Origin: Phycisphaerales bacterium
GTDB lineage: Bacteria; Planctomycetota; Phycisphaerae; SM23-33
DNA length: 37,599 nt
NCBI GenBank assembly: GCA_018644725.1
Contig: JABGPZ010000074.1
Span: forward strand, 1-37,599
Direction: 5' to 3'
Numbering within the stretch: the first letter of the stretch is position 1; each line of letters opens with the position of its first letter. Both the position numbers and the translations under genes were made by a program. The notes beneath the pieces are model-generated. The model ran no database searches. It saw nothing but the letters and a program-made list of their open reading frames with translations, and was not told where the DNA came from. Shown here piece by piece: positions 2,736 to 6,768 of the stretch.

Positions 2736-5438
2736 ATGAGCAAATCAGGCAAGGCCATCCGCGCCGAATTCATCCAATATTTCCAGGACCTGCAGCACAG
2801 CCACGTCGTCTCAAGCTCGCTCTTGCCGGCTGACGACCCGACGCTGTTGTTTGCCAATGCGGGCATGAACCAGTTCAAGCCCGTCTTCCTCGGCACCGAA
2901 GCGCGCGACTATACCCGCGCCGTCAATAGCCAGAAGTGCATCCGCGCGGGCGGCAAGCACAACGACCTCGACGATGTCGGGCGCGACTGCTATCACCACA
3001 CCTTCTTCGAGATGCTCGGCAACTGGTCGTTCGGCGACTATTTCAAGGTCGATGCGATTGACTGGGCGTGGGATCTGCTGGTGAATCGTTGGGGCCTCGC
3101 GCCCGAGCGTCTCCACGCGACCTACTTCGAGGGCAGCGAAGCCGACGGCCTCGATGCTGACCTGGAAGCGCGCGATCTGTGGCTGAAATATCTCCCGGCC
3201 GACCGGATTCACACCGGCAACAAGAAGGACAACTTCTGGGAAATGGGCGAAACCGGGCCGTGCGGGCCGTGCAGCGAAATTCATTATGACGGCACCGATG
3301 ATTTCTCCGGCGGGCCGATGGTCAACAAGGATGACCCGCGCGTGATTGAAATTTGGAACCTCGTGTTCATGCAGTTTAACCGCGACGCGGCGGGCGTTCT
3401 CGCGCCGCTGCCCGCCCAGCACGTCGACACCGGCATGGGCCTTGAGCGCGTTACGGCCGTCATTCAGGGCAAGCAGTCCAACTATGCAACCGACCTGTTC
3501 ACGCCGATTATCGAGGCGATTGAAGCGATGTCCGGCAAGCAATATGGCGAAGGCCTTGATGGGGACCGCTATGATTCGACCGACGATGCGAGTTTGGTTG
3601 ACGTGGCGATGCGCGTGATTTCCGATCACGTCCGCACGCTGACGTTCGCGATTGCGGATGGGATTCTGCCGAGCAATGACGGGCGGGGCTATGTCCTGCG
3701 TTCGATTTTGCGTCGCGCAGCCGGCTTTGGTCGTCAGCATCTCGGCATCGAAGGAAATTTCCTGCACACGCTCGTCGAGGTGGTCGTTGAGGCCTTCGGC
3801 GACGCGTTCGGCGAACTCGTCGACCGCAAGCAGGTTGTCGTCGATACGGTTCGCGAGGAAGAAGAATCGTTCGGCAAAACGCTCGACCGCGGGTTGACGC
3901 TGTTTGATCGGTTGATCGAAACCGCGCGTCGCAACGGCGAGAAAAAAATTGAAGGCATGGACGCGTTTGAGCTCCACGCGACGTATGGCTTCCCGATTAC
4001 GCTGACGAAGCTGATGGCCGAAAAGGCCGGGCTGAGCGTCGACGAGCTGGGTTTTGCCGAAGCGATGGAGACCCACCGCAACGCCTCGCGCGGCGATGGC
4101 GGGAAGTTCAAAGCTGACGCGGTCATCGGCCTGCCCGCGAGCGACGACGGAGAAAAATTTTCCGCGACGAGTGTTGATGCCAAGGTTCTTGGCTGGGTCA
4201 TCGGTGACAAATTTATCACCGAGGGCACACTGGACGCGGGCACCGAAGCGGCGGTCGTTCTCGACCGGACATGCTTCTACGGCGAGTCGGGCGGCCAAGT
4301 TGGCGACACGGGGGAACTCCTCTGTGAGAACATGCGTTTTGTCGTCAGCGGCACGACCCTCGCGGGCAGCTGCGTCCTGCATGCGGGGGCGCTCGAGTCG
4401 GGCAGCCTGCGCGTTGGCTCGTGTGTTTCGGCCGCGCTGGACATGACGCGCCGCACCGCCATCGTTCGAAACCACTCTGCGACGCACCTGCTGAACTGGG
4501 CGCTGCGCCAAGTTCTCGGCGACGGTGTGAACCAGGCGGGCAGTGTCGTCGATGCCGAGCGTCTGCGGTTTGACTTTACGAATTCCAAAGCCGTCACCAG
4601 TGAGCAACTCGCCGAGGTGGAGTTGTTGGTGAACGGGAAAATTCTCGCGGACCTGCCGATCATCATCGGCTTTAAGCCGCTCGATGAAGCGAAACAGATT
4701 CCCGGTGTGCGCGCGGTGTTTGGCGAAAAATATCCCGACCCGGTGCGCGTGGCCGCGATGGGTCCGGACGTGCTGGACGCGACGCAGGCCACCGACGCGG
4801 TGGAGTTCTGCGGCGGGGTGCACCTCGCGCGGACCTCGCAAATCGGCCTGATGAAGATCGTCAATGAAGAGTCGGTCGCCAAGGGTGTGCGGCGCATTTC
4901 GGCCGTGACGGGCGACGCGGCAGCCGCGTGGGTCACCGAGGCCGACGGCGTGTTGCGCGAGCTTGCGGCGGTGCTGAAGGTCAAGCCCGACGCGATGGCC
5001 GAGCGCGTGTTGGCGATGCAAAAGGAAATCAAGAAACTCAAGAAGCGTCCCGCAGCCGCAGCCGGCGGAGGCGGGCTGAGCAATGAAGTCGAAGTTGAAA
5101 CCCCCGCAGGCAAAATTGTCGTTGCCCAGTCGCTTGCCCCCGATGCGGGCGCGATGCGCAATGCCGCCGACCAGCTTCGCCAGAAGGGCGCCGTTGCGGT
5201 GTTCCTTGGCGCGGCAGATGCCGACGAGGGCAAGGTGATCCTGATCGCGATGTGCGACGACGAGATCGTCAAGGGCGGCAAGCTCAGGGCGGGCGATTGG
5301 GTGAAGAACGTCGCGCCGGTCGTCGGCGGTGGTGGCGGCGGCAAGCCGAACCTCGCTCAGGCGGGCGGCAAGATCCCCGCCAAACTTCCCGACGCGTTGG
5401 CTGTTGCGGCCGAGTTCGCCAAAGAACAGCTCGGCTGA
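2736..5438 (+). CDS. alaS: Alanine--tRNA ligase
   Basis: A 900-residue class II synthetase that charges tRNA-Ala in the cytoplasm; bacterial AlaRS is usually about 875. The catalytic core is marked by DPTLLFANAGMNQFKPVFLG near residue 35 and by GETGPCGPCSEIHYD. The editing domain has the zinc ligands in HSATHLLNW (HxxxH) and CGGVH. The C-terminal C-Ala/DHHA1 part ends in a glycine-rich GGGGGGKPNLAQAGG, typical of the family. The ATG at 2736 follows GAGAGGA. It is transcribed alone and followed by a large inverted-repeat element rather than a simple terminator. The only unusual point is an extra poly-glycine run around residue 773, in the linker before the last domain. Confidence 0.98.
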   Translation: MSKSGKAIRAEFIQYFQDLQHSHVVSSSLLPADDPTLLFANAGMNQFKPVFLGTEARDYTRAVNSQKCIRAGGKHNDLDDVGRDCYHHTFFEMLGNWSFGDYFKVDAIDWAWDLLVNRWGLAPERLHATYFEGSEADGLDADLEARDLWLKYLPADRIHTGNKKDNFWEMGETGPCGPCSEIHYDGTDDFSGGPMVNKDDPRVIEIWNLVFMQFNRDAAGVLAPLPAQHVDTGMGLERVTAVIQGKQSNYATDLFTPIIEAIEAMSGKQYGEGLDGDRYDSTDDASLVDVAMRVISDHVRTLTFAIADGILPSNDGRGYVLRSILRRAAGFGRQHLGIEGNFLHTLVEVVVEAFGDAFGELVDRKQVVVDTVREEEESFGKTLDRGLTLFDRLIETARRNGEKKIEGMDAFELHATYGFPITLTKLMAEKAGLSVDELGFAEAMETHRNASRGDGGKFKADAVIGLPASDDGEKFSATSVDAKVLGWVIGDKFITEGTLDAGTEAAVVLDRTCFYGESGGQVGDTGELLCENMRFVVSGTTLAGSCVLHAGALESGSLRVGSCVSAALDMTRRTAIVRNHSATHLLNWALRQVLGDGVNQAGSVVDAERLRFDFTNSKAVTSEQLAEVELLVNGKILADLPIIIGFKPLDEAKQIPGVRAVFGEKYPDPVRVAAMGPDVLDATQATDAVEFCGGVHLARTSQIGLMKIVNEESVAKGVRRISAVTGDAAAAWVTEADGVLRELAAVLKVKPDAMAERVLAMQKEIKKLKKRPAAAAGGGGLSNEVEVETPAGKIVVAQSLAPDAGAMRNAADQLRQKGAVAVFLGAADADEGKVILIAMCDDEIVKGGKLRAGDWVKNVAPVVGGGGGGKPNLAQAGGKIPAKLPDALAVAAEFAKEQLG

Positions 5439-5465
5439 CTTTCACAACCATAAGGCAAGGAGTAA

Positions 5466-5652
5466 GCGCCGAAGGCGCGAAAGGATTTAGCCGGGGGCGT
5501 GAGCCCCCGGAATGTGGCAAAAAGAAAAGAGCCCCGAAGGGGCGAAAGAAACGTTCATCCTTCATTCTTCTTTCGCCCTTTCAGGGCTTTTCTTCTAAGA
5601 TCGTTTACCGGGGGCTCACGCCCCCGGCTAAATCCTGTTGCCCTTTCAGGGC
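5466..5652. repeat. Inverted composite hairpin element (BIME/REP-like)
   Basis: A two-hairpin unit occurs on the plus strand at 5466-5510 and inverted at 5608-5652. Hairpin 1 is a 5-bp stem with a GAA loop. Hairpin 2 is CCGGGGGCGTGAGCCCCCGG, an 8-bp stem with a GTGA (GNRA-type) loop. A GGATTTAG linker joins them. The 28-nt segments 5483-5510 and 5608-5635 are exact reverse complements. Two further copies of hairpin 1 sit inside, at 5531-5548 (+) and 5570-5587 (-). The stems differ between copies but stay paired (GCGCC/GGCGC, GCCCC/GGGGC, GCCCT/AGGGC). The element fills the alaS 3' gap; short frames within it are not credible genes. Confidence 0.85.
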
Positions 5653-5748
5653 AAAGGCAAACCCGGTCCAATCGGGTGGGTCATTGAGGCCCCGCTGGAT
5701 AATCATTGACTCGGATGGGTGTCTCATTCACTCCAATTTACTATGTTT

Positions 5749-6768
5749 TTATTTTGCGATGGCGCCGGTGGGGCAGGCCTCGATGAGGGCGGCGGCGAGT
5801 GCGGGATCGTTGAAGGGGTCCGTTGCATTGCGGCCGAGGGGCGCGGCGGCGGACAGGTCGAACCCGCGGCCATGCCAGGTCGGCCCGAGGTCTTTGCCGT
5901 GGGAGTTGGCGACTTCGACGCACAGGCCACACTGGATGCACTTGCCGGGCTCGAAGACGGCGTGCTCGCCGACAACAAGTTGCCATTGGCGGTGGGGCGC
6001 TTTGCGGGCGTTGGGGTTGGCGTCGAGGTGTTCGGCCCAGAGTCGCAGCGAGCAATCCTTCGCGTCGCGGCAGTCGCAGTGCATGCAGCGCGCGGCCTCG
6101 GCCATGGCGTCGTCGAGCGAGTCGATCGTCTCGTTGCGAGGTCTGTCGGCGGCGGTGGCCTTGACGGCGGTGGGGAGGTCGATGGCCGAAATCGGAATCG
6201 TCGTCGACAGGCGCGTCTTGGGTGTGACGGCGGCGGGGGATTCGGTCGCGCCAGTTTTGGCCGCGAGGAATTGCAGGATCCCCGCGATGTTCACGGGTGC
6301 GTCGTGGCGGGCGCGGCGGCAGGCTTTTTCATATTTCGTTTCGTCAAGCGTCGCCAGCGCACCGGCCGAGTTCGACAGGATCGTGGCCGCCAGATCCAGC
6401 TCGTCCGTTGCCACTACGCGCAGGATCGCGGGGATGTCGAGGCTGGCGGGGTGGGCTTTGCGGCAGGGCGCTTCGCAGTCGCCGAGGTGGTCGCCGAGGA
6501 GCAGTTCCATCGCTTCGCGGCGCATGGCCAGGACGTCCGGCGTTTCGGATTCCACGGCGAGTCCTTCGGCTGCGGGGAGTGCGCACGAGGGCACGAACGC
6601 GCCTGTGTCGCAGCGGCGCACAAGGCAGACCATGCAGCTGGTCCGCGCGTCGCAGCCGTCTTTCCAGCAGAGGTGCGGAATCGTCACGCCATGTCGCGCG
6701 GCGGCTTGGAGAACGGTTTCGCCGTCGCGGAATTCGATGCGCTGATTGTCGAGAAGGAAGTGTGGCAT
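5749..6768 (-). CDS. Multi-cluster Fe-S electron carrier, GltD-like without the flavin domain
   Basis: A 339-residue cytoplasmic protein. Residues 1-75 are a plant-type [2Fe-2S] ferredoxin domain with ligands C34, C45, C48 and C62. Residues about 85-180 resemble the Fer4_20 domain of glutamate-synthase small-subunit-like proteins (GDCEAPC, then CRRARHDAPVNI), but the third ligand of the usual CxxxCP is H106 and the GRVC...C pair is absent. Residues about 215-339 match the C-terminal module of the same large proteins (ARCMHCDCRDAKDCSLRL, KCIQCGLCVE, ACPTGAI). The FAD/NAD(P)H domain normally between them is missing. Its start overlaps the alcohol dehydrogenase stop by one base (TAATG), so translation is probably coupled and it may accept electrons from, or donate them to, that enzyme. 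No frameshift is visible. Confidence 0.75.
   Translation of the reverse strand: MPHFLLDNQRIEFRDGETVLQAAARHGVTIPHLCWKDGCDARTSCMVCLVRRCDTGAFVPSCALPAAEGLAVESETPDVLAMRREAMELLLGDHLGDCEAPCRKAHPASLDIPAILRVVATDELDLAATILSNSAGALATLDETKYEKACRRARHDAPVNIAGILQFLAAKTGATESPAAVTPKTRLSTTIPISAIDLPTAVKATAADRPRNETIDSLDDAMAEAARCMHCDCRDAKDCSLRLWAEHLDANPNARKAPHRQWQLVVGEHAVFEPGKCIQCGLCVEVANSHGKDLGPTWHGRGFDLSAAAPLGRNATDPFNDPALAAALIEACPTGAIAK

Follow-up and report, generated by a model that had tools for sequence, protein, structure and literature searches.

Inverted Acido-Lenti-1 arms beside alaS in a Phycisphaerales genome and their association with an IS200-class TnpA

What kind of element is the strongly folded stretch that separates alaS from its convergent neighbor, and what might have placed it there? 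The window analyzed here, contig C43 at its full length of 37,599 nucleotides, belongs to a Phycisphaerales genome of 2.54 Mb (112 contigs, 95% complete). The alaS gene (alanyl-tRNA synthetase; 2736..5438, plus strand) ends 27 bases before the element, which occupies 5466-5652, and the convergent gene (5749..6768, minus strand) encodes a 339-aa protein with an N-terminal 2Fe-2S domain (Fer2_4). The first-pass annotation of this DNA had described four 5-bp stems with GAA loops whose differing sequences always remain paired, three of them followed by GAAAG, together with 28-nt outer segments that are exact inverted copies. Direct reading of 5466-5652 bore out this description in every detail: GAAAG followed three of the four stems and AACAG the fourth, and the 28-nt GGATTTAGCCGGGGGCGTGAGCCCCCGG at 5483-5510 was the exact inverted copy of 5608-5635.

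The element consisted of two inverted three-hairpin arms around a 17-nt core. Each arm followed one plan, namely hairpin A (a stem of 5 bp and a loop of GAA or GGA), a 12-nt linker with TTAG at its end, the TTAG-tagged hairpin B (8-bp stem, GTRA loop, either GTGA or GTAA), a spacer of approximately 20 nt, hairpin A', and GAAAGAA. In the left arm, on the plus strand, the outer hairpin A (GCGCC-GAA-GGCGC) was read directly at 5466..5478, followed by the linker GAAAGGATTTAG (5479..5490), which ends in the TTAG foot of hairpin B, hairpin B itself (CCGGGGGC-GTGA-GCCCCCGG; 5491..5510), the inner hairpin A' (GCCCC-GAA-GGGGC; 5531..5543), and GAAAGAA (5544..5550), the same motif that stands beside a transposase gene on contig C81. 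After the core (5551..5567), which varied between copies, the right arm ran on the minus strand and comprised A' (GCCCT-GAA-AGGGC; 5575..5587) and B (5608..5627), both read directly, the linker AACAGGATTTAG with its TTAG foot (5628..5639), and the outer hairpin A (GCCCT-GAA-AGGGC; 5640..5652). The window arms formed a 45-nt inverted repeat, 87% complementary, and the element region had a folding energy of −126.9 kcal/mol compared with −71.7 for shuffles (z = −10.8). Like a REPIN, the element is thus made of inverted palindromic units able to fold as one long hairpin. The right outer extension, common to other long copies of subfamily 1 and probably spanning 5653..5745 according to alignments, ended in a degenerate relative of an outer terminal inverted repeat (TIR) and a T-tract. 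The locus had been read as a two-hairpin unit; both hairpins were real, but the basic unit was the three-hairpin arm, two of whose three hairpins correspond to the Rfam family Acido-Lenti-1.

The proposal that this is a dispersed, folding composite of the REP/BIME type was confirmed in the same genome, where blastn with the element returned 96 matching stretches, including 11 that were full or nearly full-length at 84-100% identity, and a covariance model of the arm returned 68 matches at E ≤ 0.01, mostly inverted pairs with constant spacing; these copy counts are lower bounds, as some contigs start or stop inside or beside a copy. The starts of paired B hairpins were 116-119 bases apart in approximately 16 elements and 182-184 bases apart in five elements with a 67-nt insert, and the paired B hairpins were 610 bases (C81) and 557 bases (C68) apart where a TnpA gene lay inside. 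The insert, a hairpin of the type CCGGGGCTTGCCTTAGTC...GACTAAGGCCCCGG, was observed in the right spacer of at least five copies (L012, L013, L015, L017, and L018; also L028). Across 12 copies, the hairpins and linkers were 85-100% identical, the core 73%, and the outside sequence 66%; the two spacers were 81% and 30% identical, the second figure being pulled down by the insert. The inner hairpin A' of the left arm was 100% identical between the 12 copies, and the mean pairwise identity of its hairpin B among copies was 96.7%. Next to elements, the outer A hairpin was also repeated in tandem, in units of approximately 47-60 nt that lacked hairpin B (L031, 1050-1400 on C81; L004 on C100, upstream of the element).

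Stem covariation, which had been noticed within the single locus, extended across the genome. When 56 arms were anchored solely by hairpin B, with the outer stem taken at a fixed offset so that arms were not picked by pairing, 278 of the 280 outer-stem cells were paired (99.3%), compared with a mean of 78.8% and a maximum of 84.6% in shuffles. A wider alignment with other genera showed double changes at 13 of 18 pairs; the B-anchored test is the fairer of the two because arms in the wider alignment were selected by hairpin detection. The two findings named beforehand as contrary to the proposal, a single genomic copy and stems lacking compensatory changes, were both looked for, and neither was observed. 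The foot of hairpin B and the inner motif were fully linked: GATAG occurred with G[GA]CAG in 15 arms, the TTTAG type occurred with GAAAG or GGAAG in 31, and there were no mixtures (15/0/0/31; p = 2e-12). The combination of TTTAG and GAAAG marks subfamily 1. Foot tags in this genome were mostly TTTAG or GATAG, with TGTAG in 2 of 56 arms; the window copy carried TTAG, which is not the 5′ GT[AG]G tag of REPINs, and GTAG was found in 7 of 19 arms from other genera.

The genome contained six Y1_Tnp matches. Two of these, 146-aa Y1/HUH transposase genes on C81 (L031) and C68 (L032), each lay directly between inverted A-B-A' arms, at the position taken by the 17-nt core in the window copy. The C81 arms carried the TTTAG/GAAAG signature of subfamily 1 and the C68 arms the GATAG/G[GA]CAG signature; the window copy groups with the C81 arms. 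Since two arm pairs enclose a 146-aa Y1 gene, the copy in the window resembles these elements with the gene removed. The two genes were 67% identical and each was single-copy, in contrast to the near-identical multi-copy transposase elements typical of IS200/IS605. Their proteins scored 81.5 and 71.5 bits against NCBIfam transpos_IS200 (cut-off 55) and only 21.9 and 23.7 bits against REP_Tyr_transpos, far under its cut-off of 80. The closest solved structures were the TnpAs of IS608 (E 3e-16) and ISDra2 (E 5e-15), and the Y1 HUH catalytic residues of IS200/IS605 were present in both proteins. Eight residues (H53, H55, W93, Q94, Y113, Q117, H120, and H121) were invariant in 18 TnpA sequences. 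The HxH, WQ, and Y---Q--HH motifs and the 146-aa length together make up the signature of TnpA-Y1 subclass 1.2 (HuH motif DH[IV]H, approximately 148 aa). A Y1 or RAYT-type mover had been suggested from the window alone; a cognate Y1 transposase was indeed present in the same genome, but it was an IS200-class TnpA with the subclass 1.2 signature and not a classical class-2 RAYT, as the cognate enzyme of a REPIN would be. The 226-aa Y1 proteins encoded on C111 and C47 were rejected as candidate movers, with zero arm matches on those contigs by blastn or the arm model.

These results suggest that the window element is probably a non-autonomous REPIN-like transposable element without its own transposase gene, whose arms are recognition ends for a subclass 1.2 TnpA. 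The arms appear to matter to TnpA because they are the most conserved parts, because their subfamilies match the two TnpAs, and because the association crosses phyla, as set out below. In the mechanism that we propose, each arm (A, the TTAG-tagged B, and A') would, as single-stranded DNA, form the recognition end for the Y1/HUH transposase, which, if it acts as the IS608 enzyme and TnpA-REP do, would recognize the tagged hairpins, cleave at their foot, and rejoin the DNA. A short, gene-less element with both arms could use the enzyme in trans, and the window copy and its relatives would be internal-deletion derivatives of tnpA-bearing elements, kept and spread in trans as has been proposed for REPINs. 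Inserted copies might supply bidirectional terminator-like hairpins at gene 3′ ends as a by-product. TnpA binding and cleavage at the arms, a single-stranded DNA substrate, and an origin of the copies through transposition by TnpA are all inferred. Our confidence is high for the anatomy and the arm/TnpA association and moderate for the transposition mechanism. Several points weigh against this reading: each TnpA gene is single-copy here, outer TIRs occur on many copies and are missing from the TnpA-bearing ones, two other genomes (G078 and G485) carry arms without a detectable TnpA, and Bacteroidota homologues seldom have the three-hairpin arm.

The match to a known family came from the Rfam model RF01687 (Acido-Lenti-1). 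Hairpin A, the linker, and hairpin B of the left arm matched on the minus strand at 5465-5510 with 57.3 bits, and those of the right arm matched on the plus strand at 5608-5653 with 48.2 bits (gathering threshold 37); both matches ran over model positions 1-46, the whole model, which reads A, linker, and B on the strand opposite to the arm. MicroRNA and snoRNA models of Rfam gave weak matches far under their cut-offs and were set aside. Acido-Lenti-1 was introduced as an RNA by Weinberg et al. in 2010 (PMC2864571), and a genome paper of 2026 still reports it as a possible regulator (PMC13298647). In our literature search, the family was described only as a candidate non-coding RNA of unknown function, and no paper tying it to a transposase was found. 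The complete model is covered by hairpins A and B and the 12-nt linker between them; in contrast to the published family, these two hairpins form here two thirds of a mobile-element arm, with the third hairpin A' in intact copies, and they usually stand in inverted pairs and adjoin TnpA genes, whereas Rfam and later papers treat them as non-coding RNA.

The association was then seen across genomes. A homologue of the C81 protein was found in 21 of 40 related genomes, this genome included, and most of the C81-type genes inspected in relatives had three-hairpin arms on one or both sides, the arms of relatives being picked by hairpin detection. All 21 genomes with a C81-type gene had at least one arm match and 19 had five or more, compared with five or more in 3 of the 19 genomes without the gene. 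Among 292 genomes of Planctomycetota, RF01687 and subclass 1.2 TnpA occurred together in 59, RF01687 only in 12, TnpA only in 10, and neither in 211 (odds ratio 104); among 198 genomes of a second phylum, probably Acidobacteriota, the corresponding counts were 38, 11, 7, and 142 (odds ratio 70), both by Fisher tests that ignore shared ancestry. Class-2 RAYTs, taken as a control, were a much weaker predictor of RF01687 (65, 6, 112, and 109 genomes; odds ratio 10.5), and their association was not significant among genomes lacking subclass 1.2 (odds ratio 3.2, p = 0.08), whereas subclass 1.2 still predicted RF01687 among class-2-positive genomes (odds ratio 63). Class-2 RAYTs were accordingly rejected as the partner of the family.

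The physical arrangement was also shared between genomes. In several genomes, the distance from RF01687 matches to TnpA genes was 53-131 bases; where two RF01687 matches lay close together, 13 of the 15 pairs had the same inverted arrangement. At 20 second-phylum loci picked by protein similarity alone, a strict A-B-A' arm was found at 12, compared with 0.0 expected from shuffles, and RF01687 matches were present at five further loci. Of 26 loci in a mixed set dominated by Bacteroidota, two had the strict arm, one in a Planctomycetaceae genome and one in Pontiella, neither of them from Bacteroidota; the three-hairpin architecture is therefore not universal in subclass 1.2. Flanks of Bacteroidota subclass 1.2 TnpA genes (L176, L178, and L181) carried simpler repeats such as AACCCCGAAGGGGTGA...TATAG, with hairpin A and without B, which are possibly a reduced version of the arm. 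In G243, homology between short copies stopped at the outer A hairpins, which fits the arms being the true ends of the element in that genome. G078 and G485 (e.g., L278-L283) had many RF01687 arms, in inverted pairs in G078, and no subclass 1.2 TnpA at E ≤ 1e-20; either these are orphan arm populations or the gene was missed. Two approximately 95% identical second-phylum genomes, G470 and G510 (L229-L236), differed in their RF01687 arrays at matching positions and beside the single TnpA gene, in so many ways that no clean insertion could be read when they were compared for empty sites. The alaS relatives scanned for an empty site were only approximately 50% identical and too distant at this locus. 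The genomic pattern of RF01687 arms as a whole argues for a DNA role.

A first alternative is that the dispersed copies are conventional MITEs, in which a DDE cut-and-paste transposase moved outer imperfect TIRs into terminator T-tracts with the Acido-Lenti-1 arms as passengers. Such TIRs were present on most long copies of both subfamilies (GGTTCATGGCAGAGTAGAGTGG in subfamily 1 and CTCTGTATAGAACAT in subfamily 2) and absent from the transposase-bearing copies, and the TIR pattern occurred 10 times in the genome and never in a reversed control. Most TIR ends adjoined the T/A tracts of intrinsic terminators, and in the three copies with both ends the tract was on the same strand at both sides, as a target duplication of 8-10 bp would give (TTTTTTAT twice, ACAAAAAA twice, and ATTTTTTTTA with ATTTTTTA), although chance duplications are likely, given the T-tracts. 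In G468, too, an arm was found inside another TIR-bounded element sitting in hairpin loops. Conservation, however, was strongest in the arms and weaker in the TIRs and outer regions; the TIRs of the two subfamilies were unrelated while the arm plan was identical; the short copies of G243 had nothing in common outside the arms; and no autonomous element with such TIRs was recognized. We regard this alternative as unlikely, although some copies may have taken a MITE route: in this genome, the most recent dispersal may have relied on another transposase that carried the arms along. Two further observations concern these termini. TIRs abutted terminator T/A tracts, for example at L008, L015, L017, and approximately 5726-5755 of the window, which suggests insertion into terminator tails. 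The arm-carrying element of G468 (L237-L253; TIR TGTCTGYGTCATAGC) was inserted into the loops of other short hairpins (GTCCC-NNN-GGGAC), where 3 or 7 bp were duplicated.

A second alternative follows the Rfam description, according to which the family is a functional RNA element, either a small RNA or a 3′-end structure that terminates or protects transcripts, maintained by the host. A transcript-end role at alaS had also been raised at the outset, and it is plausible: terminator-like hairpins lie on both strands between alaS and the convergent gene. On the plus strand, the right A' (5575-5587) reads as a terminator-like hairpin with TTTTCTTCTA after it, past the end of alaS, which it would serve; on the minus strand, the left A' (5543-5531) reads as another, with TCTTTTCTTT after it, which would serve the convergent gene. 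Four such hairpins were counted, compared with 0.7 in shuffles. None of the 31 copies lay within a predicted ORF, and the 22 resolved placements, with neighbor genes from a simple codon-usage caller, comprised 11 convergent, 10 tandem, and 1 divergent. The stems were moreover preserved with some G-U pairs. This placement fits a harmless or mildly useful position at gene 3′ ends and shows no selection for it, and an RNA or terminator role can be a secondary effect. An RNA role leaves the dispersal, the subfamily matching, and the unrelated host genes without explanation, and it does not account for copies that stand as exact inverted pairs around transposase genes and track transposase presence across genomes. 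As a primary explanation it is improbable. The weakest alternative, a classical REP/REPIN family mobilized by a class-2 RAYT elsewhere in the genome, appears very improbable: class-2-like Y1 genes are present on C111, C47, and C10 and the tag-plus-hairpin design recalls GTAG REPs, but the arms flank the two IS200-class genes only, the blastn and arm-model matches are on contigs other than these three, and class-2 RAYTs do not predict RF01687 once subclass 1.2 is absent.

The preferred reading, a REPIN-like element served by a subclass 1.2 TnpA, can be placed among known systems. As in the REPINs and REPtrons of class-2 RAYT/TnpA-REP (PMC3116915, PMC2817692, and PMC6006769), tagged hairpins form inverted doublets that have a spacer of fixed length and are scattered between genes, each cognate Y1 transposase has a sequence subfamily of its own with matching repeats on either side of its gene, and some tandem arrays occur. 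The present family differs in its IS200-class (subclass 1.2) enzyme, its three-hairpin arm, its lower copy number (68 arm matches), and its foot, which is TTAG or ATAG where REPINs have GT[AG]G. Subclass 1.2 has been described without REP sequences, generally without terminal hairpin structures, and mostly from Cyanobacteria and Bacteroidetes (PMC6006769). The proteins found here agree with that description in length (146 aa), DH[IV]H or NHLH, WQ, Y---Q--HH, a conserved C-terminal tail, and low gene copy number, but the published lack of REPs and terminal hairpins did not hold, as arms stood at most loci tested in Planctomycetota and Acidobacteriota; the hosts, the hairpin arms, and the dispersed derivatives all depart from it. 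IS200/IS605 elements of subclass 1.1 (IS608 and ISDra2) belong to the same Y1/HUH catalytic family and likewise carry one tnpA gene with hairpins close to each end; theirs are simple subterminal hairpins in place of the mutually inverted three-hairpin arms, and the gene here lacks many near-identical copies. BIMEs and TIRtrons/TIRYTs (PMC3733652) likewise show mosaic inverted palindromic modules and Y1 genes with flanking inverted repeats, mostly 3′ of genes. The 26 published TIRYTs comprise 20 proteins of class 2.1 and six of class 2.2 or 2.5, and a GGGGWSAS repeat motif accompanies most of them (PMC6006769), whereas the genes described here belong to subclass 1.2 and have Acido-Lenti-1 arms.

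Two things are new here, the link between a REPIN-like population and a subclass of IS200-class TnpA that was believed to lack one, and an identity for Acido-Lenti-1; REPINs as a kind of element were already known. The orphan family RF01687 thereby gains a concrete identity, and a transposase subclass described as having no such sequences gains candidate substrates. A single genome here has the same ends both on elements with an IS200-type gene and on short copies that lack it, as predicted for how REPINs originated (PMC3116915). On balance, we lean toward a broader interpretation in which Acido-Lenti-1 is the DNA end of unrecognized, phylum-crossing REPIN systems run by subclass 1.2 TnpAs and not an RNA gene family, and in which the intact elements are surviving intermediates between IS200 insertion sequences and REPINs, since they keep tnpA between the same arms that build the short copies. 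Separately, repeats of the GGGGACAGGTACC and AAAAGTAGTGCCTGTCC types near copies (flanks of L007, L257, L258, and L261) resembled the GGGGWSAS repeats of TIRYT (class 2.1) transposases.
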